Shown piece after piece: positions 2,915 through 46,430 of a stretch of 64,000 nt of DNA. Origin of the DNA: Epinephelus fuscoguttatus. Taxonomy: Eukaryota; Chordata; Actinopteri; Perciformes; Serranidae. The stretch is from assembly GCF_011397635.1 (NCBI RefSeq), contig NC_064752.1, positions 4,546,607 through 4,610,606 of the forward strand, in the 5' to 3' direction. The translations under genes and the position numbers were made by a program. The notes under the pieces were generated by a model that saw only the letters and a list, made by a program, of their open reading frames with translations, ran no database searches and was not told where the DNA came from. Numbering within the stretch: position 1 is the first letter of the stretch; every line of letters starts with the position of its first letter.

Positions 2915-5367
2915 CTTTCGAAGCTGAAAAGAAAAGATTTTAAAAAAGCTTCAGAGATAAATAGATGTTCACAGCAATTATAGACAGTGGGCCTTATTTC
3001 AAGGATTTCAACTCCACTTTTCTCGTTAAACGGTGCATAATCTGTTCACAAATAAGGAGCAAAGGAGCAGAGGTTGTATTCAGGTGCGTAATGGAATGAT
3101 ATTAACACTGTGGAATCAACAATTGGAAAGCTTGCAGTTTTCTGCAGAGAGTAATGCAGTAAGAGCAGTGATGTCACTGCAGCAAATATGGTGGGACATT
3201 ATAGAAGCAAAACTAAAAGCTGTAGTTTGAAACTTGACAGAAGAAACAGAACTAAATTTTCAGCTTTTAAAATAATTAAGTTCCTCTTCTCCTTGTTCAT
3301 AAATGTGCGTAGTGTCTCTCTTAATGGGGAGTTTGACAGCAGCTCTGCTCTGATCTCTGCTATTTTCACAGATTTTAATCATATTAATATTTTCTTTATT
3401 AATGATGTATTTTTTTTAACCTTTCACAACATCCATGCCCCTGTGTGTGTAAAAAAGTAGAGTGTACGTGTGTTTTGAACCCTCCTCTGTAAGCAGATCT
3501 TACTATCTGAAGAATGTACCGTTTATGTCGCAGGAAAATACTGCACCATTCTGACTTTAGACCAGGTGTTTGTTGGTCAGTAGCACAATCACTTTCCACT
3601 GCCTCAAAATAGCAATATGCCAACAGTGTGCCTGACCACACCTCATTTTAAGAACTACATGCCCGTGGACACACAGATGGGCGCAGGAACATGGAATAAA
3701 TCTATGAGAAAATCAATTTAAATTGAGTAACAGTAAGCATGATAACGTGTAGGCTATTTGTACTTCTCTCTCAATTTTACAATCTCAAAGAGTATCAGCA
3801 CCAACTAGTGGGTTATTGTTTGAGACTTCTTCATTAACATACATCATTCAAAAATTTGTAATCTCCTGCCACAAAAGCTTGATCGGGTCCAGTCAGATGG
3901 CTTCGAGGACTACACTATATTTAAATGGTCTTTGATACTTTTAGGTTGTAGAAAGTCCTTTTTACAAATACCTGTTGTTTTGTATGAAGGGTTTGTTTTG
4001 TATATGGAGAACAAATTGCTGTACAACGGATCAACCAATCTGAAATGGCAGAAAGAGACAAAGATCCCTCTGAGCAACAGCTGAATCAGAACAGAGAAAA
4101 TCAGCAGTCATTGTAAAAAATAAACTGGGAGCTTAGCATCAAAATGTGTGCAGCTTTAAAGAGGAACAGGTTCCTGTTTCACTGTCAAGAGTATGCCTGT
4201 AACAATTACCAGGCAATGTGTTGGTTTAGCAAAGCTCTTCTTCAGACTTCACAGTAGGAACAGAGGGGTTAGCACTGTTGGAATATCAGTGCAACACACT
4301 ATGGACTGGCAAATCACAGTTTAAACCTCTGCAGAGGGCCTGAAGAAAAACACGCTAACTATTTAGAGCCTAGTTCCATGGCCGTAGTTCAGTAATGATC
4401 AAGGGTCACTGACACTGTTCGACTGGAAAACCAATTTCACATCTAAATTCCAACAGTGTTCTCCTCTGTGATGCAACACTGTGGGGACATCAAATAAACT
4501 GAAGTTTGAATCACTTAATTATCTTGTGTTTCTTGGGCCATAACACTTTCACTTGTATCTTTGATGAAATATCCATTGTTTATCAAAAGAAAAACATCAT
4601 TATAACAGCTGATATATAACTTTTTATCAGTCGTGTGTCTTTATATTTCCATCATAACATTGACAGTAAACAGAGATAAAGACAGGAAGGGTGATAAATC
4701 CATAATGCCGTTCATGTCTAGTTTTTAAAAAAACCATAGTTTACAAATCATACTTCCTTTGTGTTTCATAATCTAACGTCAGAAGCTGAGACATCAGACT
4801 CACATCTGGTGTTAGCTCTACAATTACTAGAGCTTCATTACAGCCAAAGGTAGATAGTTTAAACAAAACAGTTTCCCAAATTATTCAAAGGAACAAGACA
4901 CTGTCGGACATTCAAAGCTGGTGTTGTGAGTTCACTGTTCTTATAGATAATCTTGCATTAATCCGCGCAATGACAACAGAGACACAAGAAAGACGTCATG
5001 TTAACCTGTGTGTTCATGTTAAACCTGAATAAAAATGAAAAAATAATATTTAGTTTTTTAGACAGGATCCTCAACAGCATGACTTCATCTGTTATTAATA
5101 GAATTATTATGGGATTAATCATAAAGTCATGTCTTTGAACTGTCCCTGTTTCAGTTTAGAACAATTTTACTTTTTGTCCATTGAACTGATTTAAAACTGT
5201 GCTGTGAGAATCAGGGAAGTGAAAATATCAAATGTCAGCAGGTAGAAAAGGATCACATTGAACAATCCTAAAAAACACAGGAGAAAAATTCACCACAGAC
5301 AGGCCTGTGTAGTGGAGTCAGAACACAGTTCAAAGCTGTCAAGTAGTTCACAGCAGGTAGTGCTTAC
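2915..5367 (-). other. 5' leader intron of A, no gene seen
   Basis: This is the presumed intron between the non-coding 5' exon (from 5368) and coding exon 1. A pyrimidine-rich tract ending in CAG lies just upstream of the ATG at 2914 and would serve as acceptor. It is almost identical to 17989-20449 in C. No coding signal or named repeat was recognised. Confidence 0.5.
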
Positions 5368-16023: not shown

Positions 16024-17733
16024 TACCAATCAATCAATCAATTTTATTTATAAAGCCCAATATCACAAATCACAATTTGCCTCACAGACCAAAAGTTTGG
16101 ACACACCTTCTCATTCAATGCATTTTCTTTATTTTCATGACTATTTACATTGTAGAAGGCATCAAAACTATGAATGAACACATGTGGAGTTATGTACTTA
16201 ACAAAAAAAGGTGAAATAACTGAAAACATGTTTTATATTCTAGTTTCTTCAAAATAGCCACCCTTTGCTCTGATTACTGCTTTGCACACTCTTGGCATTC
16301 TCTCCATGAGCTTCAAGAGGTAGTCACCTGAAATGGTTTCCACTTCACAGGTGTGCCTTATCAGGGTTAATTAGTGGAATTTCTTGCTTTATCAATGGGG
16401 TTGGGACCATCAGTTGTGTTGTGCAGAAGTCAGGTTAATACACAGCCGACAGCCCTATTGGACAACTGTTAAAATTCATATTATGGCAAGAACCAATCAG
16501 CTAACTAAAGAAAAACGAGTGGCCATCATTACTTTAAGAAATGAAGGTCAGTCAGTCCGGAAAATTGCAAAAACTTTAAATGTGTCCCCAAGTGGAGTCG
16601 CAAAAACCATCAAGCGCTACAACGAAACTGGCACACATGAGGACCGATCCAGGAAAGGAAGACCAAGAGTCACCTCTGCTTCTGAGGATAAGTTCATCCG
16701 AGTCACCAGCCTCAGAAATGGCAAGTTAACAGCAGCTCAGATCAGAGACCAGATGAATGCCACACAGAGTTCTAGCAGCAGACCCATCTCTAGAACAACT
16801 GTTAAGAGGAGACTGCAAGAATCAGGCCTTCATGGTCAAATAGCTGCTAGGAAACCACTGCTAAGGAGAGGCAACAAGCAGAAGAGATTTGTTTGGGCCA
16901 AGAAACACAAGGAATGGACATTAGACCAGTGGAAATCTGTGCTTTGGTCTGATGAGTCCAAATTTGAGATCTTTGGTTCCAACTGCCGTGTCTTTGTGAG
17001 ACGCAGAAAAGGTGAACGGATGGATTCCACATGCCTGGTTCCCACTGTGAAGCATGGAGGAGGAGGTGTGATGGTGTGGGGGTGTTTTGCTGGTGACACT
17101 GTTGGGGATTTATTCAAAATTGAAGGCACACTGAACCAGCATGGCTACCACAGCATCCTGCAGCGACATGCCATCCCATCCGGTTTGCGTTTAGTTGGAC
17201 GATCATTTATTTTTCAACAGGACAATGACCCCAAACACACCTCCAGGCTGTGTAAGGGCTATTTGACCAAGAAGGAGAGTGATGGAGTGCTGCGGCAGAT
17301 GACCTGGCCTCCACAGTCACCGGACCTGAACCCAGTCGAGATGGTTTGGGGTGAGCTGGACCGCAGAGTGAAGGCAAAGGGGCCAACAAGTGCTAAACAC
17401 CTCTGGGAACTCCTTCAAGACTGTTGGAAACCATTTCAGGTGACTACCTCTTGAAGCTCATGGAGAGAATGCCAAGAGTGTGCAAAGCAGTAATCAGAGC
17501 AAAGGGTGGCTATTTTGAAGAAACTAGAATATAAAACATGTTTTCAGTTATTTCACCTTTTTTTGTTAAGTACATAACTCCACATGTGTTCATTCATAGT
17601 TTTGATGCCTTCAGTGAGAATCTACAATGTAAATAGTCATGAAAATAAAGAAAACGCATTGAATGAGAAGGTGTGTCCAAACTTTTGGCCTGTACTGTAT
17701 ATCTATATATATCTATATCTATATCTATATCTA

Positions 17734-20449: not shown

Positions 20450-20515
20450 CTCAGTTAATGCTTAGAGACCAGGACACCAACAATATGACTCCAGGAAATC
20501 ACAAACTTTATGTGA
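20450..20515 (-). promoter_or_regulatory. 5' exon and weakened core promoter of C
   Basis: The leader and donor (CTGAG/GTAAGC, boundary 20450/20449) match A. The TATA box reads CACATAAAG (about 20506-20514) where A, D and the F unit have CATATAAAG, so one core T is replaced by C. Confidence 0.55.
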
Positions 20516-28829: not shown

Positions 28830-30787
28830 CTTTCAAAGCTGAAAAGAAAAGATTTTAAAAAAGCTTCAGAGATAAATAGATGTTCACAGCAATTATAGAC
28901 AGTGAGCCTTATTTCAAGGATTTCAACTCCACTTTTCTCGTTAAACGGTGCATAATCTGTTCACAAATAAGGAGCAAAGGGGCAGAGGTTGTATTCAGGT
29001 GCGTAATGGAATGATATTAACAGTGCGGATTCAACAATTGGAGAAGCTTGTGGTTTTCTGCAGAGAGTAATGCAGTAAGAGCAGTGATGTCACTGCAGCA
29101 AATATGGTGGGACATTATAGAAGCAAAACTAAAAGCTGTAGTTTGAAACTTGACAGAAGAAACAGAACTAAACTTTCAGCTTTTAAAATAATTAAGTTCC
29201 TCTTCTCCTTGTTCATAAATGTGCGTAGTGTCTCTCTTAATGGGGAGTTTGACAGCAGCTCTGCTCTGATCTCTGCTATTTTCACAGATTTTAATCATAT
29301 TAATATTTTCTTTATTAATGATGTATTTTTTTTAACCTTTCACAACACATCCATGCCCCTGTGTGTGTAAAAAGTAGAGTGTGTGTGTAACAACAGGTTC
29401 CTGTTTCACTGTCAGGAGCACAATAATGCCTGTAACAATTACCAGGCAATGTGTTGCTTTAGCAAAGCTTTTCTTCAGACTTCACAGTAGGAACAGAGGG
29501 GTTAGCACTGCTGGAATATCAGTGGAACAATTATGGACAGAAAAACCACAGTTTCAACCTCTCCAGTCTAACCACTGAGTAGACTGCAGAGGGTCTGACG
29601 AAAAACACACTAACCATTTAGAGTCTTGTTGCATGGCTGTAGTTCAGTAATAATCAAGGGCCACTGACACTGTTCGGACTGGAAAAACGTATTCAAAATC
29701 CAAATTCCAATAGTATTCTTCTCTGTCATGCAACACAGTGGGGACATTGACTAAACTGAAGTTTGAATCATTTAATTATCGTCTTCTTTTTGGGCCAAAA
29801 CACTTTCAAGTGTAAATAATATATTTGGTTCCTGATTTATACTGTTTTATCTCTTTTAAAGTGACCATTGATGATGGAAAAAAAGAAAAACATCATTATA
29901 ACAGCTGATATATAACTTTTTGTCAGTCGTGTGTCTTTATATTTCCATCATAACATTGACAGTAAACAGAGATAAAGACAGGAAGGGTGATAAATCCATA
30001 ATGCCGTTCATGTCTCGATTTTAAAGCCCCTGAAAACAGTTTACAAATCATACTCCATTTGTGTTTCATAATCTAATATCAGAAGCTGAGACGTCAGACT
30101 CACATCTGGTTAGCACTAAAATTATGAGCTTCATTACAGCCAAAGGTAGATAGTTTAAACAAAACATTTTCCCAAATTGTCAGAGGGAACAAGACACTGT
30201 CGGACATTCAGAGCTGGTGTTGTGAGTTCAGTGTTTTTATGGATAATTCAGCATGAAGCCCCGCAATGACAACAGAGACACAAGAAAGAAGTCCTCATTT
30301 CATCATCTGATGAAAAGCTAAAAGCAAATATGTAACTTTTGTAATAATATTAGATGCATTTACAATCATACAATTGAAGTTTGATAGTGAAAAGAACAAG
30401 AGTTTTTGTTATTTAATGATTTTGCATATAGTTTTTGTAGTCTGTACACTTGCCAAACACTCATAAAATTCTCACATTAAAGCTGAGTTAAAATTCTAAT
30501 AGCTATATATTACTTATTTTGTTTTCAATACTTTTTTATAGGATTAACCATAAAGTCATGTCTCCTTGTTTTAGTTTGGAATAAATTTCTTTTTCGTCCA
30601 TTGAACTGATTTAAAACTATGCTGTGAGAATCAGGGAAGTGAAAATATCAAATGTCAGCAGGTAGAAAAGGATCACATTGAACAATCCTAAAAAACACAG
30701 GAGAAAAATTCACCACAGACAGGCCTGTGTAGTGGAGTCAGAACACAGTTCAAAGCTGTCAAGTAGTTCACAGCAGGTAGTGCTTAC
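28830..30787 (-). other. 5' leader intron of D
   Basis: Related to 2915-5367 but with deletions and different indels. The part from 30023 on is also the left part of the E/F duplication unit. No gene seen. Confidence 0.5.
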
Positions 30788-30852
30788 CTCAGTTAATGCT
30801 TAGAGACCAGGACACCAACAATATGACTCCAGGAAATCACAAACTTTATATG
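30788..30852 (-). promoter_or_regulatory. core promoter and non-coding 5' exon of D
   Basis: CATATAAAGT on the minus strand (about 30844-30851), leader, and donor CTGAG/GTAAGC (boundary 30788/30787), identical in layout to A. A short (TG)6 lies upstream. Confidence 0.65.
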
Positions 30853-31203
30853 AGGTGTGGTGGCAAATGTCCCTGGACTCCCTGTGTGTGTGTGTTAACA
30901 TGTTGAGGTGTTCATGCAAACAAGAGTAGTTGGTGTGTTTTATAAAAAGTTGCAAATCTACAGTGGCCCCATCATAAATATGGGAAACTAAATGTAAAAG
31001 TGTCAGCTTCAGTAAACAAACACAGCTTTGACATGTTTATGTAATATTCAACATATCAGGGACTAGATTATGTGACTGAATTGTAACAGGAAATTTGAAA
31101 AAATAATCAACTGTAAGTATTTTTTCAGTGTGTTAATACATCAAAAATGGTGTCTGTGATTCTGTAGAAAGATCATTGATAATCGAACTCAAAATCCAAA
31201 CAC

Positions 31204-31393
31204 ATGGGGCGTTGGTAGCGTAGTGGATAGTGCTGGTGCCCAGTGTACAGAGGCATCGCCTATAGCGGCCGCGGGTTCTAATCCAGCTTGCGGCCCTTTG
31301 CTGCATGTCAGTCCCCACTCTCTCTCTGTCTCCCCATTTCACTTTCTGTCCTGTCAATAAAGGCAAAAAGCCCATAAAAATAATCTTTAAAAA
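31204..31393 (+). mobile_element. tRNA-derived SINE, unit 1
   Basis: The head has an A-box-like GTAGCGTAGTGG and a B box that here reads GGTTCTAATCC. The body has CCCTTTGCTGCATGTC and ends in an A-rich tail. It is flanked by a 13-base direct repeat AAAATCCAAACAC (31191-31203 and 31394-31406). Confidence 0.92.
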
Positions 31394-31884
31394 AAAATCC
31401 AAACACGATGTGACATTACATCAGTAACAACCACACTTATTTTAAGCCAAGCTGTAGCGTTTTTTTCCTAAACCTACCCACATGCTTCCCTTGCCTAAGG
31501 TTAAGGAAGTAAAAATAACTTTGAAGTGTTTTACATATGTTATAAGTTTATTTAAAAAAAGACTATATCCATGTAACAAGCAGAAACTATATATTATCTG
31601 TGAAAACGAAAGTGTATTTTGAAAAGACACGTGACAAGTGTAAATTGACACGTCCTTGAATATCCAAAAATGATGCAGGAAGCTTCACATGGTGCTGACG
31701 AGTTGGGATGAGAACTTGTTTTAACACACCATTAGTTAAAGAACTGTTATGCCATAAATTCATTTTCCACAACAAAAATTTACGAATTCAGTCAGAGTAA
31801 CTAAATTATGACCAAACGTACTGTCGATTCTAACTCAGAGTAAAGTCAAACAAATAATCAGTTTTAGGATCTGACTCCATGTAA

Positions 31885-32307
31885 GAGCCCGTACACATGG
31901 CACGTCTATAACCGTCTGGAAAACACAAGTTCGGGAGCTGGATGCTACTAGAGTATGGAGGCAGGTTGCATCTAAGGTTGCTCAGCAACCAGATCCAGCA
32001 CTGTATCATAGCCTTTTTTTAGTCCGCGGGACAGATGTAAAGCTCTGGGTAGCCCTGCAGTAAAATGATCTACTCCTTCTCCATAGTCATCTATAGTTAG
32101 CTATTTACAGAAGAAGGGAACGATCTCTGCCGGCTATGGTTAGTTGTTCCTTGTCAAATGACATGCAGCGCGTGCTGCTGGGTTACAGAAGTTGAACTCT
32201 CATCTCAAAGTGCAGCATTGTTCTGGCTTTTGAGCACGCCTGGCGGGTGTCTACATAGAAAACAGTGGATTTAAGGGTGCAAAAAATACGCCATGTGTAC
32301 GAACCCC
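31885..32307. mobile_element. PIF/Harbinger-type MITE directly after gene E
   Basis: Inverted tips GAGCCCGTACACATGGC and, complementary at the right, GGGGTTCGTACACATGGC. It is flanked by TAA on both sides (31882-31884, 32308-32310), the three-base target typical of PIF/Harbinger. It has no coding capacity. Its right end lies 24 bases from the stop codon of E, so it supplies most of the 3' untranslated region. Confidence 0.8.
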
Positions 32308-32331
32308 TAATGCTTTTGAAAGTTTTTGAAA

Positions 32332-33855
32332 TTATTGAACTGATTGTTTCTGTGGGCTCATTGAACAAAACACATACCTTTTCAGATACTTCCTGAAAGT
32401 CTTGTCTCGTATGCCATAGATGATGGGACTAATAGATCGCGGCAGGACCTGAACAATAATATAACAAGCGAACAGGGTGTCTGGATAATTCTTAGGAAAC
32501 GCTTGCTGCAGAGCCTGTTTTACTGGGGGTTCTACGTATGTTGCCATACAAAGCAGCAGCTGAAACCCATGGAGGATGATTGTGTTTCTGGCCTTTTTAG
32601 CATCTTTGCTAGCTGTTTTAGCAGTGAACAGAATTCTGAAGTAAGTGTAAAAAATTACAAACCAAACGATTACCAGATACACAATATAGGTAATATCTCT
32701 CTTTTTGATAATCTGGGGATTTCGAAGGCAGTTTCTGAGACAGAAGACTCTGGAATGAAAGAAGTCCAGTGGCTCTGTGGCCAAAGTGATGAAGAGATCA
32801 GGAAGGACTGACAACATGCTTGTCACCCAGATTAAACCAATCAGCATCAACGTTCTTTTGACTGTACAGAGCTGCACGTGGCGAAGGGGGAGACAGATGG
32901 CGATGTAGCACTCCACCGCCATGCAGGCCAGGTTCAGAGGGTGTTTTCAGTGGCGAAAAGAGCAATCAGGATGAAGATGCAACAGACAGAAACATTTATT
33001 TTGTAGAGGATGTAGCTGATGATGAACAGCATAACAGTCAGCATCACTTGGATCATGTCGTTGACCACCAGGTGAATAAAAAGGATGTAGCGTGGATTCG
33101 TGTAGAAGATCTAGAGGGTGGGAAGAAAAGCACATGAAAAAAAGTAAAGGTTTGTCCTACAGTAAATGTGGAACTGCAGTACAAAAATACCAACACCTGA
33201 ATCACTACTTCAAAACAGCAAATATCAGCTTGGCGATCACATTAACTTTATGTTGGTTTCAGTTTTTACAGTCTCCTTAAATTATTTATATGTGGTTACC
33301 TTTAGAGCATAAATAAGGATTGAACAGCATGACAGTATGTATTGAGAGGCAATATAAACTCTGAACTCTGAACTTGGCTGAAAAATTTCTGGGTGGAACT
33401 CGTGCTTGTGAACTTTGGTTCCACATCTCGTGCATAAATCTACATACCATATACTCAGAATGTGGCTACTGGCACTGAACAGTGACTCATGTATTGTATC
33501 ATTGTATGAACTGTTGAAGCCCTGTCATGAATCAGGACCCCCAGTATTTGGATTATGTAGCCCGGAAAAGACTTGAATCAGCGGTGTATACCTCTTGCTG
33601 TTTGCAAATATAAGAGTCGGATCGGATTGGGAACAGGGGAGAAAAAGCATATTTCTGTAGTGCATTTGATATTTGTGTTTACGTGTAATTAAAGGAAAGT
33701 CATACCTGGTGTTTACGAAAAGTGTGAATGAGGCCTGCATTGATATAGTTGATGGAGATGCTAAGAACCACGACAATCACATTCTTGGTCACAGCCTTAG
33801 TGAAGGAGTCCCGATATGCGATGACCACAGTCACATTGGCAGATGACACGTTCAT
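32332..33855 (-). pseudogene. odorant receptor 131-2-like gene E, frameshifted
   Basis: Exon 1 is 33706-33855 (50 intact codons, MNVSSANVTVVIAYRD to KHQ). Exon 2 is 32332-33110, acceptor CCCTCTAG/ATC. Against its twin F, one G is missing from the run near 32938-32941, at ENTPLNL after helix 2-3. The frame then reads ENTL and stops, giving about 108 residues instead of 310. Downstream, two small losses (one A and two C, near 32725-32735) cancel and change FCLRETAFRNP to FCLRNCLRNP. The first break alone inactivates it. Intron 595 bases. Promoter candidate 35086-35150. Confidence 0.85.
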
Positions 33856-35085
33856 CTCCTGAAACCTGAAGATCCAACAAAGGAAAAAGCATAATTATAG
33901 AGTGCGAGGAATCACATTATTGACCCACATATGAGACAGTCCCCTCAAATTTAAGACCACAGGAACCTGGGAAAAAAACATTATCATTCACACTTATTGT
34001 TAAAAGTTAGACATTTAGTATGATTTTTTTTATATAAATGACATAGTAAAATACATAGTAAAAACAAAAGGTTTGTTAAACTGAGGAAAAACGGTTTTGT
34101 TACACTCTTGTAGAAATAATTATTATATCCCATCAGTGCATCACTACTCATTACAATATGATGGATGGCTGTGAATCTCTGATTAACACAATTTAACCTG
34201 GATCATGACAATTTCCACAGTTACTTTCACTCATTTACATATATATATACATATTTATTTAATTTGATATAATTTTATTGTATATATTTAAAACTTTAAT
34301 TGATACTGCAGTTCAAATGTAAAAACACCCTCAATGTATTCATTTCTTTCCAACAGTGAGAAACAGAAGCACTCACCTTAGGGTCAGGGTGTCAACTTGA
34401 AAGATAAATATCAAAGTATTGTTTTTTGTAATTAAAGTGCATGTATGAAAATTTTAGCTGTTAACATGTGGGATCAAAAGAACATAACTTGTCTGTGTGA
34501 CTCCCAAACTGTCATAAAAAATAATCTGATTAAGAATTAAAAGTATAGCATACACATCTACCTTTGATAAGAAGTGAATCCTTCAATTAAATGATTGCTC
34601 TTTTAAATTGTATCATAGTTGTGGCATTCAAGGTCCTTCAAACAGCAGATGCATAAACTGTTTTGCTATTAATATATATATATATATATTTTTTTTGTAG
34701 AATTAAGTGTCATGTTTTGTCAAATTGTTGATGTTTGAGTTTTTAATCAAACTGTTATCTTCTGGTTGTTTGATCCAGCACACAGATTTGTATTCTGGGA
34801 ACCTGGGTGAGAGAATTTAAAGTACAAAATGTCCTGCAACAGAGAAAAAAAACTCCAGTAAAACACACTCAGATGATTTTATCACTTCATTCTGTAGAGA
34901 CTGACACTACACAACCAACCAGGACCAATTTGGGTAAATACGGTTTATGTGTCAGTAGGTACAGAACAGTTCAAAGCAACATGAATGAATTATTAAGCAG
35001 TTTAATGTTGTCATTACAATTCTAGCCCTAACCCATTCATTTCTACTGTCACATATATGAAGCCACATGACTGCACAGTACTCAC

Positions 35086-35150
35086 CTCACTGCATTCAGT
35101 CCAGATCACCAACAATGTTGATTTGGAAAAGCTATGACTTTATATATATA
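35086..35150 (-). promoter_or_regulatory. core promoter and non-coding 5' exon of E
   Basis: The minus strand carries TATATAAAGTCAT (about 35133-35145). The following leader contains AACATTGTTGGTGATCTGG, aligning with that of A, and ends at donor GTGAG/GTGAGT (boundary 35086/35085). It is absent from the F unit. Confidence 0.6.
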
Positions 35151-35214
35151 TATATATATGTGCTTCGGTGGGCAATCATTCAGGATTCAGGGGTGTGCGT
35201 ATCTATCTTTAGAT

Positions 35215-35216
<2 letters not shown>

Positions 35217-35268
<52 letters not shown>
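35217..35268. repeat. (TG)n microsatellite upstream of the E promoter
   Basis: About 26 TG repeats. The matching repeat in unit 2 (42481-42522) directly abuts the promoter deletion. Confidence 0.97.
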
Positions 35269-35269
<1 letters not shown>

Positions 35270-35600
35270 ATGCCTTTAGAAGTATCAAAGTAAAGGAGTA
35301 AATATGTGCACATGCTAAACAAAATTTTTACATTTTACTAAAAATGGAAGGAGTTTCTGTCTGTTAGGTGTCTAGGGGGGAAAAATCGATAGAGCGATAT
35401 TTTGCGTGGTAATATTGTATCAATACACAGATGTCAAGTATTGATCTTTTACTATATACATAGTTCATCTTTGCAAATACACATTTTAATACAACGTTTG
35501 GTACTACAACAATAAAATCAGTTGCTTTTTCGGTCCACTAGATGGTGCTGATGTTTTTTTTTTTTCCTGGTGAGGTCAGCAGAGGTCTCAGTTGGCGCCA

Positions 35601-35780
35601 TTTCAGAATCAGAATCAGAATCAGAAATACTTTTTTGATCCCCGAGGGGAAATTATTTGCGTTACAGGTGCTCCTTGCAAGAGTGGAAAGATAAGTGAAA
35701 ATGTAAGAAATTTAACAAGATTATTTACAAATATATAGTTCAAATAAACAGGATTATTAACAAAAAATAATAATTATATA

Positions 35781-35812
<32 letters not shown>

Positions 35813-36100
35813 CAACCTAAATCGCTAATACACAGAATATATACAGTCAAGGTAAAATGGGGTTATTGCACAAGTTAAATTATTGCATATGTTGACAGTA
35901 GGTGAAATAGTCACAGGGCCACTCAGAGGGAGGAGTTGTACAGTTTGATGGCCACAGGCTGGAATGATTTCCTGTGGCGCTCAGTGGTACATTTAGGTGG
36001 TATGAGTCTCTGACTCAAAGTACTCTTGTGCCTGACCAGCACATGGTGGAGTGGGTGTGAGACATTGTCCAAGATAGTTCGTAGGCAGGAAGTTCATCAA
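35601..36100 (-). mobile_element. LINE 3'-end fragment, unit 1
   Basis: The minus strand near 36040-35930 reads HKSTLSQRLIPPKCTTERHR then KSFQPVAIKLYN and a stop, a typical reverse transcriptase C-terminus. A 3' tail follows, ending in tandem GATTCT units (plus strand AGAATCAGAATC near 35605), the usual end of a common fish LINE. A TA microsatellite lies inside (about 35775-35812). Confidence 0.65.
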
Positions 36101-36107
36101 AACAAAG

Positions 36108-37012
36108 ATGGAGGCACCAGAGAAAGAAATCAGAAATGCGCCATCGATGTTTAAATCAAACATCTGGACTTATTTTGGATTTTTTAACACAGAGGGAAAG
36201 GAGGCCTTGGGTATGACGCATGCAGTTTGCAAGCAGTGTCACATGAGAATAAAATACTCTGTGAATACTAACATTAAGGGCTCACCTCACACGCCATCAT
36301 CCAGAGATAGCATTAGCCGCTGACGGACAAACTAATGCTAAACCTGCTCTGCCAAAAAATCAACCAACACTTGACACAGTTAGCTTGACAAAACTCCCAT
36401 CCAACTCTGAGAGCTAAGAAAATAACACAGTCCATCACCTACTTTATGGGCAAAAATACGCGTCCATACAGTGTTGCTGAAAACAAAGGCTTTTGTTACA
36501 TGCTAAAAACACATGAGCCCAGGTATATGACTCCGTCCCCACGTCTTTACAACGACACAGCTGTACCCAAGCTCTACAGAGACATGCAGCATTACGTTGA
36601 AGAATCTTTGAGTGCAGCAGGAAGGCTGGCGTTAACCTGTGATGCCTGGACTTCAAGGTCAGTGGATTCATATGTGACTATAACGACACATTATCCAGCA
36701 GAGGACTGATGACTGCTGTCTCACGTTCTCCAGACTAGCACAATACATTATCTGACATAGGACTGGAGACAGCTGTCTCACGTTCTCCAAACTAGAACAG
36801 TACACCAAAGTCACAGCAGAGCAAACACTGCAGACCTCCTGCAAAATACAGTACAAGAATTTAACAAAAAATGCTTCTAATAATAGTGATGTCATTCAGT
36901 TAGCAGGATACCTGCATGTTAAGTGTTTGGCGCATGTGCTTAATCTGGCCACTCAAAGGGTGTTGAATCTGCCCACAGTTCAGTCTGTCAGGTGTGTGCA
37001 GCATTTCTGACA
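36108..37012 (+). mobile_element. hAT transposase remnant (ZBED-like), unit 1
   Basis: Starts MEAPEKEIRNAPSMFKSN. It has a partial BED zinc finger (WTYFGF..VCKQCHMRIKYS, His half lost). Then come MGKNTRPYSVAENKGF, LALTCDAWTSRSVDSYVTIT and VKCLAHVLNLATQRVLNL, all in the order seen in hAT-Ac transposases. Frames are broken in several places and the C-terminal dimerisation region is missing. Confidence 0.75.
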
Positions 37013-38236
37013 GGTTTTATGACGGTGTTGGTCAGTCTGTCTGCTTTGCATCACGTTTTGCTGCAGTAAAAATGATTAAAGTCGATGAGCAGACTGAAAT
37101 CTTTGTCTTGTGATGTAAAACTGATGCTGACAAAGTTTTCCCTTGCGGTAATAATTTGCTATTGTAAAAAAAAAAAAAAAAAAAAAAAAAAGGTAATAAT
37201 TTGCAGTACATCACAATATATTGTATCACAATATGGTGATTATGTCATACCCTGAGTCCTCTGGCGATTCCCACCCCTACTGTCTGTATGTGCTGTTCCT
37301 CTGATAGACTCAACACTTGGTGGGTTTATTGTTGAGGATCCAAGAAAGTACCGTGTCAAGCTATTGAAATCTACAGGTCATTTTTTATTAGTAGCTGAGT
37401 TATGTACACACCCTGTTAGAGGGAACCCTTGTGAACTGTCACACTGCCAAACAGCATGCTGGGTACAGCTGAAAGCCCCTGAAAACAGTTTACTAATCAT
37501 ACTCCATTTGTGTTTCATAATCTAATATCAGAAGCTGAGACGTCAGACTCACATCTGGTTAGCACTAAAATTATGAGCTTCATTACAGCCAAAGGTAGAT
37601 AGTTTAAACAAAACATTTTCCCAAATTGTCAGAGGGAACAAGACACTGTCGGACATTCAGAGCTGGTGTTGTGAGTTCAGTGTTTTTATGGATAATTCAG
37701 CATGAAGCCCCGCAATGACAACAGTGACACAAGAAAGAAGTCCTCATTTCATCATCTGATGAAAAGCTAAAAGCAAATATGTAACTTTTGTAATAATATT
37801 AGATGCATTTACAATCATACAATTGAAGTTTGATAGTGAAAAGAACAAGAGTTTTTGTTATTTAATGATTTTGCATATAGTTTTTGTAGTCTGTACACTT
37901 GCCAAACACTCATAAAATTCTCACATTAAAGCTGAGTTAAAATTCTAATAGCTGTATATTACTTATTTTGTTTTCAATACTTTTTTATAGGATTAACCAT
38001 AAAGTCATGTCTCCTTGTTTTAGTTTGGAATAAATTTCTTTTTCGTCCATTGAACTGATTTAAAACTGTGCTGTGAGAATCAGGGAAGTGAAAATATCAA
38101 ATGTCAGCAGGTAGAAAAGGATCACATTGAACAATCCTAAAAAACACAGGAGAAAAATTCACCACAGACAGGCCTGTGTAGTGGAGTCAGAACACAGTTC
38201 AAAGCTGTCAAGTAGTTCACAGCAGGTAGTGCTTAC

Positions 38237-38301
38237 CTCAGTTAATGCTTAGAGACCAGGACACCAACAATATGACTCCAGGAAATCACAAACTTTATAT
38301 G
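38237..38301 (-). promoter_or_regulatory. duplicated D-type promoter, now upstream of E
   Basis: Copy of 30788-30852 with TATA (CATATAAAGT, about 38293-38300), leader and GTAAGC donor all kept. On the minus strand its next downstream receptor exon is that of E, about 4.4 kb away, so it has been separated from the D coding region. Confidence 0.6.
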
Positions 38302-38656
38302 AGGTGTGGTGGCAAATGACCCTGGACTCCCTGTGTGTGTGTGTGTGTTAACATGTTGAGGTGTTCATGCAAACAAGAGTATTTGTTGTGTTTTATAAAA
38401 AGTTGCAAATCTACAGTGGCCCCATCATAAATATGGGAAACTAAATGTAAAAGTGTCAGCTTCAATAAACAAACACAGCTTTGACATGTTTATGTAATAT
38501 TCAACATATCAGGGACTAGATTATGTGACTGAATTGTAACAGGAAATTTGAAAAAATAATCAACTGTAAGTATTTTTTCAGTGTGTTAATACATCAAAAA
38601 TGGTGTCTGTGATTCTGTAGAAAGATCATTGATAATCGAACTCAAAATCCAAACAC

Positions 38657-38846
38657 ATGGGGCGTTGGTAGCGTAGTGGATAGTGCTGGTGCCCAATGTA
38701 CAGAGGCATTGCCTATAGCGACCGCGGGTTCGAATCCAGCTTGCGGCCCTTTGTTGCATGTCAGTCCCCACTCTCTCTCTGTCTCCCCATTTCACTTTCT
38801 GTCCTGTCAATAAAGGCAAAAAGCCCATAAAAATAATCTTTAAAAA
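38657..38846 (+). mobile_element. tRNA-derived SINE, unit 2
   Basis: Copy of 31204-31393 with the same 13-base flanking repeat (38644-38656, 38847-38859). Its B box GGTTCGAATCC is the consensus form, whereas the unit 1 copy has a substitution there. Confidence 0.92.
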
Positions 38847-39337
38847 AAAATCCAAACACGATGTGACATTACATCAGTAACAACCACACTTATTTTAAGC
38901 CAAGCTGTAGCGTTTTTTTCCTAAACCTACCCACATGCTTCCCTTGCCTAAGGTTAAGGAAGTAAAAATAACTTTGAAGTGTTTTACATATGTTATAAGT
39001 TTATTTAAAAAAAGACTATATCCATGTAACAAGCAGAAACTATACATTATCTGTGAAAACGAAAGTGTATTTTGAAAAGACACGTGACAAGTGTAAATTG
39101 ACACGTCCTTGAATATCCAAAAATGATGCAGGAAGCTTCACATGGTGCTGACGAGTTGGGATGAGAACTTGTTTTAACACACCATTAGTTAAAGAACTGT
39201 TATGCCATAAATTCATTTTCCACAACAAAAATTTACGAATTCAGTCAGAGTAACTAAATTATGACCAAACTTACTGTCGATTATAACTCAGAGTAAAGTC
39301 AAACAAATAATCAGTTTTAGGATCTGACTCCATGTAA

Positions 39338-39753
39338 GAGCCCGCACACGTCTATAACCGTCTGGAAAACACAAGTTCGGGAGCTGGATGCTACTAGAGT
39401 ATGGAGGCAGGTTGCATCTAAGGTTGCTCAGCAACCAGATCCAGCACTGTATCATAGCCTTTTTTTAGTCCGCGGGACAGATGTAAAGCTCTGGGTAGCC
39501 CTGCAGTAAAATGATCTACTCCTTCTCCATAGTCATCTATAGTTAGCTATTTACAGAAGAAGGGAACGATCTCTGCCGGCTATGGTTAGTTGTTCCTTGT
39601 CAAATGACATGCAGCGCGTGCTGCTGGGTTACAGAAGTTGAACTCTCATCTCAAAGTGCAGCATTGTTCTGGCTTTTGAGCACGCCTGGCGGGTGTCTAC
39701 ATAGAAAACAGTGGATTTAAGGGTGCAAAAAATACGCCATGTGTACGAACCCC
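39338..39753. mobile_element. PIF/Harbinger-type MITE directly after gene F
   Basis: Copy of 31885-32307 with the left tip shortened by about seven bases (CCCGCACACG). It is still flanked by TAA and ends 24 bases from the F stop codon. Confidence 0.78.
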
Positions 39754-39777
39754 TAATGCTTTTGAAAGTTTTTGAAA

Positions 39778-41325
39778 TTATTGAACTGATTGTTTCTGTG
39801 GGCTCATTGAACAAAACACATACCTTTTCAGATACTTCCTGAAAGTCTTGTCTCGTATGCCATAGATGATGGGACTAATAGATCGCGGCAGGACCTGTAC
39901 AATAATATGACAAGCGAACAGGGTGTCTGGATAATTCTTAGGGAACGCTTGCTGCAGAGCCTGTTTTACTGGGGGTTCTACGTATGTTGCCATACAAAGC
40001 AGCAGCTGAAACCCATGGAGGATGATTGTGTTTCTGGCCTTTTTAGCATCTTTGCTAGCTGTTTTAGCAGTGAACAGAATTCTGAAGTAAGTGTAAAAAA
40101 TTACAAACCAAACGATTACCAGATACACAATATAGGTAATATCTCTCTTTTTGATAATCTGGGGATTTCGAAAGGCAGTTTCCCTGAGACAGAAGACTCT
40201 GGAATGAAAGAAGTCCAGTGGCTCTGTGGCCAAAGTGATGAAGAGATCAGGAAGGACTGACAACATGCTTGTCACCCAGATTAAACCAATCAGCATCAAC
40301 GTTCTTTTGACTGTACAGAGCTGCACGTGGCGAAGGGGGAGACAGATGGCGATGTAGCACTCCACCGCCATGCAGGCCAGGTTCAGAGGGGTGTTTTCAG
40401 TGGCGAAAAGAGCAATCAGGATGAAGATGCAACAGACGGAAACATTTATTTTGTAGAGGATGTAGCTGATGATGAACAGCATAACAGTCAGCATCACTTG
40501 GATCATGTCGTTGACCACCAGGTGAATAAAAAGGATGTAGCGTGGATTCGTGTAGAAGATCTAGAGGGTGGGAAGAAAAGCACATGAAAAAAAGTAAAGG
40601 TTTGTCCTACAGTAAATGTGGAACTGCAGTACAAAAATACCAACACCTGAATCACTACTTCAAAACAGCAAATATCAGCTTGGCGATCACATTAACTTTA
40701 TGTTGGTTTCAGTTTTTACAGTCTCCTTAAATTATTTATATGTGGATACCTTTAGAGCATAAATAAGGATTGAACAGCATGACAGTATGTATTGAGAGGC
40801 AATATAAACTCTGAACTCTGAACTTGGCTGAAAAATTTCTGGGTGGAACTCGTGCTTGTGAACTTTGGTTCCACATCTCGTGCATAAATCTACATACCAT
40901 ATACTCAGAATGTGGCTACTGGCACTGAACAGTGACTCATGTATTGTATCATCATCATCATCATCATCATCATGTATGAACTGTTGAAGCCCTGTCATGA
41001 ATCAGGACCTCCAGTATTTGGATTATGTAGCCTGGAAAAGACTTGAATCAGCAGTGTATACCTCTTGCTGTTTGCAAATATAAGAGTCGGATCGGATTGG
41101 GAACAGGGGAGAAAAAGCATATTTCTGTAGTGCATTTGATATTTGTGTTTACGTGTAATTAAAGGAAAGTCATACCTGGTGTTTACGAAAAGTGTGAATG
41201 AGGCCTGCATTGATATAGTTGATGGAGATGCTAAGAACCACGACAATCACATTCTTGGTCACAGCCTTAGTGAAGGAGTCCCGATATGCGATGACCACAG
41301 TCACATTGGCAGATGACACGTTCAT
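39778..41325 (-). CDS. odorant receptor 131-2-like gene F, intact frame, promoter lost
   Basis: Exon 1 is 41176-41325 (50 codons). Exon 2 is 39778-40560 (260 codons plus stop, ending SPQKQSVQ). The acceptor is CCCTCTAG/ATC; the TAG lies in the intron. The intron is 615 bases, phase 0, and the protein 310 residues. Motifs: VNDMIQVMLTVMLF, MAVECYIAIC, KKARNTIILHGF, SPIIYGIRDKTFRKYLKRY. The non-coding 5' exon and TATA box present upstream of its twin E are deleted (junction near 42480). Expression would therefore need another start, which cannot be judged here. Confidence 0.87.
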
Positions 41326-42136
41326 CTCCTGAAACCTGAAGATCCAACAAAGGAAAAAGCATAATTATAGAGTGCGAGGAATCACATTATTGACCCACAT
41401 ATGAGACAGTCCCCTCAAATTTAAGACCACAGGAACCTGGGAAAAAAACATTATCATTCACACTTATTGTTAAAAGTTAGACATTTATAATGATTTTTTT
41501 ATATAAATGACATAGTAAAATACATAGTAAAAACAAAAGGTTTGTTAAACTGAGGAAAAACGGTTTTGTTACACTCTTGTAGAAATAATTATTATATCCC
41601 ATCAGTGCATCACTACTCATTACAATATGATGGATGGCTGTGAATCTCAGATTAACACGATTTAACCTGGATCATGACAATTTCCACAGTTACTTTCACT
41701 CATTTACATATATATATACATATTTATTTAATTTGATATAATTTTATTGTATATATTTAAAACTTTAATTGATACTGCAGTTCAAATGTAAAAACACCCT
41801 CAATGTATTCATTTCTTTCCAACAGTGAGAAACAGAAGCACTCACCTTAGGGTCAGGGTGTCAACTTGAAAGATAAATATCAAAGTATTGTTTTTTGTAA
41901 TTAAAGTGCATGTATGAAAATTTTAGCTGTTAACATGTGGGATCAAAAGAACATAACTTGTCTGTGTGACTCCCAAACTGTCATAAAAAATAATCTGATT
42001 AAGAATTAAAAGTATAGCATACACATCTACCTTTGATAAGAAGTGAATCCTTCAATTAAATGATTGCTCTTTTAAATTGTATCATAGTTGTGGCATTCAA
42101 GGTCCTTCAAACAGCAGATGCATAAACTGTTTTGCT

Positions 42137-42167
<31 letters not shown>

Positions 42168-42477
42168 TGCAGAATTAAGTGTCATGTTTTGTCAAATTGT
42201 TGATGTTTGAGTTTTTAACCAAACTGTTATCTTCTGGTTGTTTGATCCAGCACACAGATTTGTATTCTGGGAACCTGGGTGAGAGAATTTAAAGTACAAA
42301 ATGTCCTGCAACAGAGAAAAAAAACTCCAGTAAAACACACTCAGATGATTTTATCACTTCATTCTGTAGAGACTGACACTACACAACCAACCAGGACCAA
42401 TTTGGGTAAATACGGTTTATGTGTCAGTAGGTACAGAACAGTTCAAAGCAACATGAATGAATTATTAAGCAGTTTAA

Positions 42478-42480
<3 letters not shown>

Positions 42481-42522
<42 letters not shown>
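42481..42522. repeat. (TG)n microsatellite at the F promoter deletion
   Basis: About 21 TG repeats. The sequence to its left joins the equivalent of 35007 in unit 1 directly to the repeat. Confidence 0.95.
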
Positions 42523-42524
<2 letters not shown>

Positions 42525-42852
42525 ATGCCTTTAGAAGTATCAAAGTAAAGGAGTAAATATGTGCACATGCTAAACAAAATTTTTACATTTTACTACAAAT
42601 GGAAGGAGTTTCTGTCTGTTAGGTGTCTAGGGGGGAAAAATCGATAGAGCGATATTTTGCGTGGTAATATTGTATCAATACACAGATGTCAAGTATTGAT
42701 CTTTTACTATATACATAGTTCATCTTTGCAAATACACATTTTAATACAACGTTTGGTACTACAACAATAAAATCAGTTGCTTTTTCGGTCCACTAGATGG
42801 TGCTGATGTTTTTTTTTTTTTCCTGGTGAGGTCAGCAGAGGTTTCAGTTGGC

Positions 42853-42999
42853 GCCATTTCAGAATCAGAATCAGAATCAGAAATACTTTTTTGATCCCCA
42901 CTCCTTGCAAGAGTGGAAAGATAAGTGAAAATGTAAGAAATTTAACAAGATTATTTACAAATATATAGTTCAAATAAACAGGATTATTAACAAAAAATA

Positions 43000-43064
<65 letters not shown>

Positions 43065-43330
43065 AACCTAAACAAGATTATTTACACAATATATATAGTA
43101 ACCTAAATCGCTAATACACAGAATATATACAGTCAAGGTAAAATGGGGGAGTTGGGGAGAGGGAGGAGTTGTACAGTTTGATGGCCACAGGCTGGAATGA
43201 TTTCCTGTGGCGCTCAGTGGTACATTTAGGTGGTATGAGTCTCTGACTCAAAGTACTCTTGTGCCTGACCAGCACATGGTGGAGTGGGTGTGAGACATTG
43301 TCCAAGATAGTTCGTAGGCAGGAAGTTCAT
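42853..43330 (-). mobile_element. LINE 3'-end fragment, unit 2
   Basis: Copy of 35601-36100 with extra deletions and an expanded TA microsatellite (43003-43060). The minus-strand C-terminal coding piece KSFQPVAIKLYN is kept. Confidence 0.65.
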
Positions 43331-43340
43331 CAAAACAAAG

Positions 43341-44245
43341 ATGGAGGCACCAGAGAAAGAAATCAGAAATGCGCCATCGATGTTTAAATCAAACATCTGG
43401 ACTTATTTTGGATTTTTTAACACAGAGGGAAAGGAGGCCTTGGGTATGACGCATGCAGTTTGCAAGCAGTGTCACATGAGAATAAAATACTCTGTGAATA
43501 CTAACATTAAGGGCTCACCTCACACGCCATCATCCAGAGATAGCGTTAGCCGCTGACGGACAAACTAATGCTAAACCTGCTCTGCCAAAAAATCAACCAA
43601 CACTTGACACAGTTAGCTTGACAAAACTCCCATCCAACTCTGAGAGCTAAGAAAATAACACAGTCCATCACCTACTTTATGGGCAAAAATATGCGTCCAT
43701 ACAGTGTTGCTGAAAACAAAGGCTTTTGTTACATGCTAAAAACACATGAGCCCAGGTATATGACTCCGTCCCCACGTCTTTACAACGACACAGCTGTACC
43801 CAAGCTCTACAGAGACATGCAGCATTACGTTGAAGAATCTTTGAGTGCAGCAGGAAGGCTGGCGTTAACCTGTGATGCCTGGACTTCAAGGTCAGTGGAT
43901 TCATATGTGACTATAACGACACATTATCCAGCAGAGGACTGATGACTGCTGTCTCACGTTCTCCAGACTAGCACAATACATTATCTGACATAGGACTGGA
44001 GACAGCTGTCTCACCTTCTCCAAACTAGAGCAGTACACCAAAGTCACAGCAGAGCAAACAATGCAGACCTCCTGCAAAATACAGTACAAGAATTTAACAA
44101 AAAATGCTTCTAATAATAGTGATGTCATTCAGTTAGCAGGATACCTGCATGTTAAGTGTTTGGCGCATGTCCTTAATCTGGCCACTCAAAGGGTGTTGAA
44201 TCTGCCCACAGTTCAGTCTGTCAGGTGTGTGCAGCATTTCTGACA
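43341..44245 (+). mobile_element. hAT transposase remnant, unit 2
   Basis: Copy of 36108-37012 with a handful of substitutions. Same broken BED finger and same LALTCDAWTSRS motif. Confidence 0.75.
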
Positions 44246-45039
44246 GGTTTTATGACGGTGTTGGTCAGTCTGTCTGCTTTGCATCACGTTTTGCTGCAGT
44301 AAAAATGATTAAAGTCGATGAGAAGACTGAAATCTTTGTCTTGTGATGTAAAACTGATGCTGACAAAGTTTTCCCTTGTGGTAATAATTTGCAATTGTAA
44401 AAAAAAAAAAAAAAAAAGGTAATAATTTGCAGTACATCACAATATACAACACTTGGTGGGTTTATTGTTGAGGATCCAAGAAAGTACCGTGTCAAGCTAT
44501 TGAAATCTACAGGTCATTTTTTATTAGTAGCTGAGTTATGTACACACCCTGTTAGAGGGAACCCTTGTTAACTGTCACACTGCCAAACAGCATGCTGGGT
44601 ACAGCTCACTCTGACGCTCATTCAAAAACAGATTGAGAATGACAGAGCAGAGATGTGGCTAGCAGTCAAAATTGACACATTTGAATCTTTAAGGGTAAAT
44701 ATGTGTGAAAAGATATTGTGTATATTAGAAAAGCTATTTGAAGTCATATTTTTCAATAGCCAAATTGTGTTGAATCACTGAAATATGACGCACCTTGCAA
44801 ATTATTTCATAACAACAGCAACAACTCACTAAATCAAAGTTAACAAATAACATTTTATTTAAAACAATATTCTATGGGAAAACAAGAGTTTTAGCAGTTG
44901 GGTGAATGCCGTAACATAAATACAGAAGTGTATTGCTGCCACATCAAGGGGAAAAAATGGATCAGTATTACATTATTACATGTACAAGTGTACAAGTTTT
45001 TCATGTTATAACGCATTCAGAGGGAACACCATACTGCGG

Positions 45040-46425
45040 TCAGAAGCACAGACAATTTAACTTTGGAGCCTGGAATGTGCGCACCCTTATGGATAGCACC
45101 ACTGGTGAAAGACCTGAGAGACATATGGCCATCATTACCAGAGAACTGCAGAGATGCCAGATTGACATCGCTGCCCTATCTGAAACCCAGGGGCAGATGA
45201 AGGGCAACTGAAGGAGGAAAAGGGTGGCTATACTTTCTTTTGGAAAGGAAAGTCTGCTGACGAGCCTAGAATCCACAGGGTTGGGTTGCCATCAACAAAC
45301 AGCTTGTCAACCACCTCTGTGAACTACCCGTAGGGATCAATAAGCTCCTCATGACCATCCGTCTGGTGCTAGTCAACAACCAGATGGCGACAGTAGTGAG
45401 TGCCTGTGCCCCTACTCTAGACTCTGATGTGGATAAAAAAGAGGCCTTCTATGCCTGCCTTGAGGAAATCCTGTCAAAAATCCCCAGGGAAGACAAGATT
45501 ATCCTTCTTGGAGACTTCAATGCCAGGGTCTGCCAGGACCAACACCTCTGGAGGGGCACTATCGGCAAAGAGGGCACTGGCAACACAAACTCCAATGGAG
45601 TGCTGCTTCTCAGGAAATGTGCTGAGGAAAATCTCATCATCACCAATGCTCTCCTCTGCCAGAGAAACAAATGCAAGGCATCCTGAAGACATCCTCGCTC
45701 CAAACAATGGCATCTTATCGATTATGTCATTGTAAGAGCCAGGGACCACTGTGATGTGAACATTACAAGGGCCATGATGGACTCCGACAACTGCTGGACA
45801 GACCACTGCCTCATTCGATCCACAATGTCCATCAAACTTTAAAAAAGGAGGTGGATTCAAAAGAAGCAAACCCAGCGAAGACTGAACCTGGATAGCCTGA
45901 ATGAAGCCACCACCAAGCAGCTACTTCAGGACTCTCTTGGGGAAAGCCTCGACTCATGTGAAACCACCTTTGGGTATAAGTCTAGGAAACATCAAGACTG
46001 GTTTGATGAGAATAATACAGAGATAGAACAACTCATCTCCAAAAAACAGAAAGTCTTCTGAGCCTGGCAAAATGACCCAACATGTGAGGCTAAAAGGACA
46101 GGTCACTCCAGAGCCAAGGCTGACGTTCAAAGACAGGTGAAGGAGCTCAGGAACATCTGGTGGACAGAAAGGGCTCTGGAACTACAGAGACTAGCGGACT
46201 CTGGTGCCACGAAGGCTGTCCATGGTCCAAGTTACCGCGGCTTAAACCCCCTGCGCTCAAAGGATGGGCAGATGCTTCTGAAAGACAACGATTCCATCAA
46301 TGCACTTTTGAAAGAGCACTTTCAAGAACTTCTCAATCGCAACAGCTCTGCTGAATCAGTCACCTTGAACCAAGGGGCAAAGTCAGCTGATGGTGGACTG
46401 ACATTTAGGTATGGTGGATGGGTCA
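45040..46425 (+). mobile_element. RTE-like LINE fragment, endonuclease part only
   Basis: AP endonuclease-like blocks in order: NFGAWNVRTLMDSTTGERPE, IDIAALSETQ, APTLDSDVDKKEAFYACLEE, IILLGDFNARV (catalytic GDFNAR) and HLIDYVIVRARD. Next are the linker pieces KHQDWFDENNTEIEQLI and LNPLRSKDGQMLLKDNDSIN. Sequence homology stops near 46425, before the reverse transcriptase. There are at least two stops and one or two frame changes, so it is inactive. Confidence 0.8.
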
Positions 46426-46430
46426 TGTAG

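Follow-up and report, generated by a model that had tools for sequence, protein, structure and literature searches.

The window analyzed here, a 64,000-nucleotide stretch of the genome of the brown-marbled grouper, Epinephelus fuscoguttatus (assembly GCF_011397635.1, contig NC_064752.1, positions 4,546,607 to 4,610,606 of the forward strand), contains no N. It holds six genes (A to F) of an array of 19 related odorant receptor (OR) 131-2-like genes that share one strand and lie at 4,435 to 4,588 kb; E and F, the subject of this study, are the last two of the array. Each array gene (n = 19) comprises a coding exon 2 of ∼50 codons and a coding exon 3, its coding region being interrupted by an intron after about codon 50; according to a passage of the review PMC3308321, by contrast, the coding regions of OR genes lack introns. 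In a nine-gene subclade, all members except F also have a core promoter and a short untranslated exon 1 upstream of the coding exons. Genes E and F lie in two adjacent, near-identical units:

30023 to 37471, minus strand: duplication unit 1, with gene E and, from gene D, the promoter, exon 1 and the 5' stretch of intron 1
37471, no strand assigned: tandem junction, with one additional G between the unit ends, zero shared bases and no N
37472 to 44606, minus strand: duplication unit 2, with gene F and an orphan copy of the D promoter and exon 1
32332 to 33110, minus strand: E exon 3, frame broken near 32941 by a one-base loss, with further losses at 32735 and 32726
33706 to 33855, minus strand: E exon 2, with the ATG, 50 codons
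39778 to 40560, minus strand: F exon 3, with an open frame and, at codon 268, a derived His in place of Tyr
41176 to 41325, minus strand: F exon 2, with the ATG, 50 codons

A tandem duplication of an odorant receptor gene

The duplicated unit is ∼7.4 to 7.45 kb long. With a messy zone (35774 to 35930) left out, units 1 and 2 differed at 44 of 6,943 aligned sites (0.63%); a first alignment that kept this zone gave 56 substitutions against 6,991 matches. Several large indels also distinguish the units. A preliminary description of the window had called them near-identical, which our alignments bear out, and its coordinates and sizes were good to a base or two. Residues 54, 95 and 271 are common to E and F and absent from both grouper orthologues, an indication that the duplication came after the splits from the other groupers (E. 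moara and E. lanceolatus).

Could E and F instead be alleles of one gene, misassembled in tandem, with each haplotype carrying its own fault? Their divergence is not far above the heterozygosity of the species (0.35%, as given in a part of PMC8701792), the two other groupers show a single entry each at orthologue level (97 to 98% identity, among the best 120 of 1,310 protein matches), and a passage of PMC8081667 lists false duplications among the commonest assembly errors. However, the junction at 37471 is ungapped, with one inserted base and no shared bases, where a misjoin would be expected to leave an overlap or a gap. Moreover, the copies are separated by the large indels, and no third copy near 99% identity was present among 19 genomic matches. 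We regard misassembled alleles as very improbable.

The spliced frame of F is open over 310 codons, with intact donor and acceptor, and its 310-residue product is 100% identical over its full length to a public E. fuscoguttatus protein named "odorant receptor 131-2-like"; the open F frame of the preliminary description was thus verified. Pfam searches identified a rhodopsin-class seven-transmembrane domain in the F frame at 39778 to 40518 (7tm_1, E = 8.5e-13; 7tm_4, E = 2.1e-6) and 7tm_1 in the E fragment at 32332 to 32922 (E = 5.4e-10). An in-frame stop just ahead of F exon 3 was considered as a lesion, but this reading was dropped, since the TAG concerned belongs to the splice acceptor and all six window genes have AG at the end of this site. 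For comparison with relatives, the best 120 of the 1,310 protein matches were fetched, and 114 passed a length filter of 295 to 345 residues. Position 268 was Tyr in 113 of 113 aligned relatives (F's own entry left out), whereas F has His. As a gene body, F therefore stands up to the preliminary description in its open frame, but not in this derived residue. In the literature collection searched, we found no paper pairing odorant receptor 131-2 with olfactory expression; for the species itself, PMC10418399 mentions that 12 fish were resequenced (data CRA010914).

The promoter block missing from F and the orphan promoter of D

The following features bear on the 5' ends of the two genes:

35086 to 35144, minus strand: E core promoter and 5' exon, with the TATA box at 35144 and the exon end at 35086, followed by a GTGAGT donor
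35010 to 35216 (E coordinates), minus strand: block missing from F, 207 bases, whose only genome match found was E itself
42481 to 42482, no strand assigned: F deletion junction, where the intron-1 flank abuts the edge of a (TG)n run (42482 to 42522)
30771 to 30851, minus strand: D core promoter and exon 1, D's own copy
38220 to 38300, minus strand: orphan D-type core promoter and exon 1, identical to D's copy at 81 of 81 positions

The core promoter was recognized by a spaced motif, TATAAAGT-N21-TTGTTGGTG, which, with at most 2 mismatches allowed, matched six sites in the window, where shuffled sequences would yield 0.03. When 190,606 bases were searched at up to 3 of 17 mismatches, nine matches were found, all on the gene strand. 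Eight subclade genes out of nine have one of these matches each, 1.3 to 3.9 kb upstream of their exon 2, and the ninth match is the orphan; no match was found in these bases at ten more distant array genes. In all six window copies, a GTRAGY donor follows at a distance of 30 to 34 bases from the start of TTGTTGGTG. The TATA box and 5' exon reported earlier for unit 1 could hence be confirmed by the conserved spaced motif and its donor, as could the loss of ∼208 bases with these elements from F, which we measured as 207 bases. On the basis of its sequence, the missing block is identified as the conserved core promoter and 5' exon.

Within the subclade, F alone lacks this promoter, which eight of nine genes have kept. 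Beside the lost block, F and E differ by a further 10 bases in the adjoining (TG)n run. The only match found for the E block in the 1.047-Gb genome was E itself. F thus lacks its core promoter in the assembly, and no moved copy of it was found. Upstream of F, the sequence examined contained no further copy of the conserved promoter; other kinds of start were not tested there. F might still be transcribed from another start, in intron 1 or the upstream flank, and yield a His268 receptor, an outcome not exclusive of other readings. Intact exons 2 and 3, donor and acceptor would permit this, and the public protein entry matches F exactly, but a predicted entry is no proof of expression, the sequence upstream of F offers no conserved substitute, and the one spare promoter nearby lies on F's downstream side. 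We consider such transcription of F quite improbable.

This spare promoter, not mentioned in the preliminary description, originates from the left breakpoint of the duplication. Position 30023, flanked by exon 2 (28829) and the end of exon 1 (30788) of gene D, falls within intron 1 of that gene, so that unit 2 carries a second D promoter and exon 1, embedded in a tract in which 2,285 of 2,302 aligned sites are identical. In transcription order, the orphan stands after F and before E, ∼4.4 kb upstream of E exon 2. Because it is downstream of F, it is unable to serve F. As assembled, E thus has two candidate promoters, and none was found for F. Judged from this arrangement, it is conceivable, if unlikely, that D's spare promoter and untranslated exon 1 splice to E exon 2 and that E is chosen by two receptor promoters and F by none. 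If so, this would be a natural promoter swap within a one-receptor-per-neuron gene family, and a spare D promoter that drives E would serve as a natural experiment on whether the promoter of a receptor determines the neurons that choose it.

The frame break of E

Exons 2 and 3 of E, when spliced, encode 108 residues followed by a stop, and a complete open frame was not encountered in the assembly. At ∼32941, E has CCC where F and B have CCCC and A, C and D have GCCC; none of the five other window copies shows this gap. A private T of E at 32988, where F has C, lies 47 bases from this run. Comparison with these copies therefore agrees with the truncation described earlier. It also revealed two losses not described before, of two bases at 32735 and one base at 32726, which are nine bases apart and together amount to −3.

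To judge which copy was under constraint, genes A to D were taken as outgroups. The substitutions derived in E numbered three, all synonymous (codons 91, 256 and 271) and without any amino acid change, and the only coding substitution derived in F was Tyr268His. Tiny as these numbers are, they suggest constraint on E and relaxation in F. E has retained its promoter, acquired D's spare one and accumulated only synonymous derived changes, which argues that it worked until very recently or still works.

One-base losses like that of E recur elsewhere in the array. In six multiple alignments of array copies, with losses scored in runs of up to 6, private one-base losses numbered 3 in g1, 3 in g2, 1 in g3, 4 in g4 and 4 in A, and 0 in C, in D and in x8 to x10. 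Private gains were found in g1 (2), g2 (2), A (1) and D (2), and private substitutions numbered 19 in g1, 18 in g2, 12 in g3, 37 in g4, 18 in A, 20 in C, 90 in D and 181 in x8 to x10. In g4, three losses fall within 48 bases, resembling the three of E within 216 bases. One-base frameshifts affected 5 of the 19 genes (g1, g2, g4, A and E). As judged from exon 3 frame length and exon 2 translation, the remaining 14 had no early stop except that of C, which comes seven residues early in the tail. The stop of gene C (13212) lies seven residues ahead of that of D. In A, the frame is broken in exon 3 (window position 74) by a loss of one base from TTTT to TTT, and three more private one-base losses lie outside its exons. 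Genes g1, g2 and g4, in a near-identical array further to the left, carry one such frameshift each (C1:4435586-4436343, C1:4441852-4442565 and C1:4458583-4458732). According to passages of PMC8081667, the errors met most often in long-read contigs before polishing were short frameshifting indels, and polishing can miss one member of a pair of matching haplotype sequences.

Recurrence of single-base losses in near-identical copies, together with the five frameshifted genes, means that the lesion of E may be a consensus error. The evidence on whether it exists in the DNA of the animal is indirect and points both ways; we put the probability of an assembly consensus error slightly above one half. 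If both losses were real instead, this haplotype would yield a receptor from neither copy, and exchange or conversion could restore one. Both lesions are indeed present in the assembly, and the other one-base frameshifts are equally explicable as true recent pseudogenes. Exchange or gene conversion would also be physically possible, given the 17 tracts of at least 200 bases that are identical between the units. On the other hand, the substitutions of E look constrained, and the single-base losses are unevenly distributed over the near-identical copies. Furthermore, since the body of F carries His268, joining it to a promoter by simple exchange would not bring back the ancestral protein, which would be regained only through a conversion tract from F that spans E codons 107 to 180 and stops short of codon 268. 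We give a real loss in both copies an appreciable probability, but one well below even.

Neither exchange nor conversion between E and F was seen in the compared units. Differences amounted to 4 of 929 coding sites against 44 of 6,943 sites in total, and there was no clear conversion tract, although no formal test was made. The reunion by unequal exchange envisaged in the preliminary description is thus physically feasible but has left no sign of having occurred. Its central proposal, that complementary damage has spread one complete gene over two copies, fared similarly: the copies are fresh, the frame of E is broken and the promoter of F is gone, but F bears His268, and the loss in E belongs to a recurrent class and is possibly not real.

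Fate of the pair and likeness to known systems

We lean toward the reading that F is an ordinary promoter-less duplicate and that E still works or was the last of the two to be lost. In this view, one OR131-2-like gene and the promoter end of its neighbor D were copied in tandem as a 7.45-kb unit, probably after E. moara and E. lanceolatus had split off. A deletion ending at the (TG)n run would then have removed the core promoter and 5' exon of F, which would now be an unexpressed, relaxed copy. E would have retained its own promoter and gained D's spare one upstream, its frame break being a bit likelier a consensus error than a true mutation. The pair probably represents the ordinary loss of one spare gene and not two halves awaiting reunion, and the complementarity of E and F may be only apparent.

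Several observations weigh against this reading. Residues 95 and 271 are present also in the paralogues A to D, so that the residues shared by E and F date the duplication less firmly. The argument from constraint draws on four substitutions only. Local alignment of single promoters to the E site gave scores (B, 24; A, 30; C, 27; D, 29) near the shuffle level (maximum with shuffled queries: B, 28; D, 30; only these two were shuffled), so that the homology of the E promoter is supported by the exact spacing and the position of the motif and not by this score. With respect to the frame break, all three short-run losses between E and F lie within 216 bases of exon 3 and none across the rest of the unit, a clustering unlike a uniform error process. 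Two of the 15 private one-base losses fell in runs of one, and the loss of g1 lies outside any homopolymer. The alignments of C, D and x8 to x10, with zero losses, consist in part of coding sequence, from which selection would remove real indels. Real indels are likewise common in young duplicates, and the error mechanism supposes a long-read assembly.

The pair illustrates how soon the regulation of duplicated receptor genes can come to differ. It carries a warning too, as counts based on open frames would score F as intact and E as dead, while the opposite may be nearer the truth.

Other features were observed around the pair. The TATA box of gene C is mutated (CATAAAGT, window 20475 to 20512), and a Tc1-like transposase frame of 356 residues lies within intron 2 of this gene on the opposite strand (16384 to 17454). 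A solitary exon 2 fragment at C1:4509365-4509457, close to another array exon 2, lacks an exon 3 of its own. Just past the right end of unit 2, frames at 44933 to 46430 resemble what we take to be decayed pieces of a long interspersed nuclear element (LINE) endonuclease.

Both genes resemble the percomorph odorant receptor 131-2-like genes, which are rhodopsin-class G protein-coupled receptors, in the 310-residue product, the 7tm_1 domain and the complete identity of F to a named entry. They differ in that E has no full-length product as assembled and F has His268 and lacks the promoter of its subclade. The frame break of E, itself a possible artefact, is similar to the artefacts of unpolished copies treated in PMC8081667, as far as its relevant passages go, in that a short indel shifts the frame of one of two near-identical sequences. 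However, the pair in that paper are haplotypes, whereas E and F are tandem copies. The state proposed for F corresponds to that of promoter-dead olfactory receptors with intact frames, for which a passage of PMC3308321 notes that a promoter mutation may preclude expression of a receptor with an intact coding region. In contrast to those cases as presented there, the loss is directly readable in F because the promoters of its eight sister genes are conserved. The breakpoint at 30023 and the orphan at 38220 to 38300 place the 5' end of a neighboring gene before another gene. This parallels the tandem-duplication chimeras of Drosophila yakuba described in part of PMC5460883: here too, a breakpoint inside one gene (D) sets its promoter and 5' exon before the exons of another. 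The grouper arrangement differs in that the captured D exon is untranslated, so that only regulation could change.

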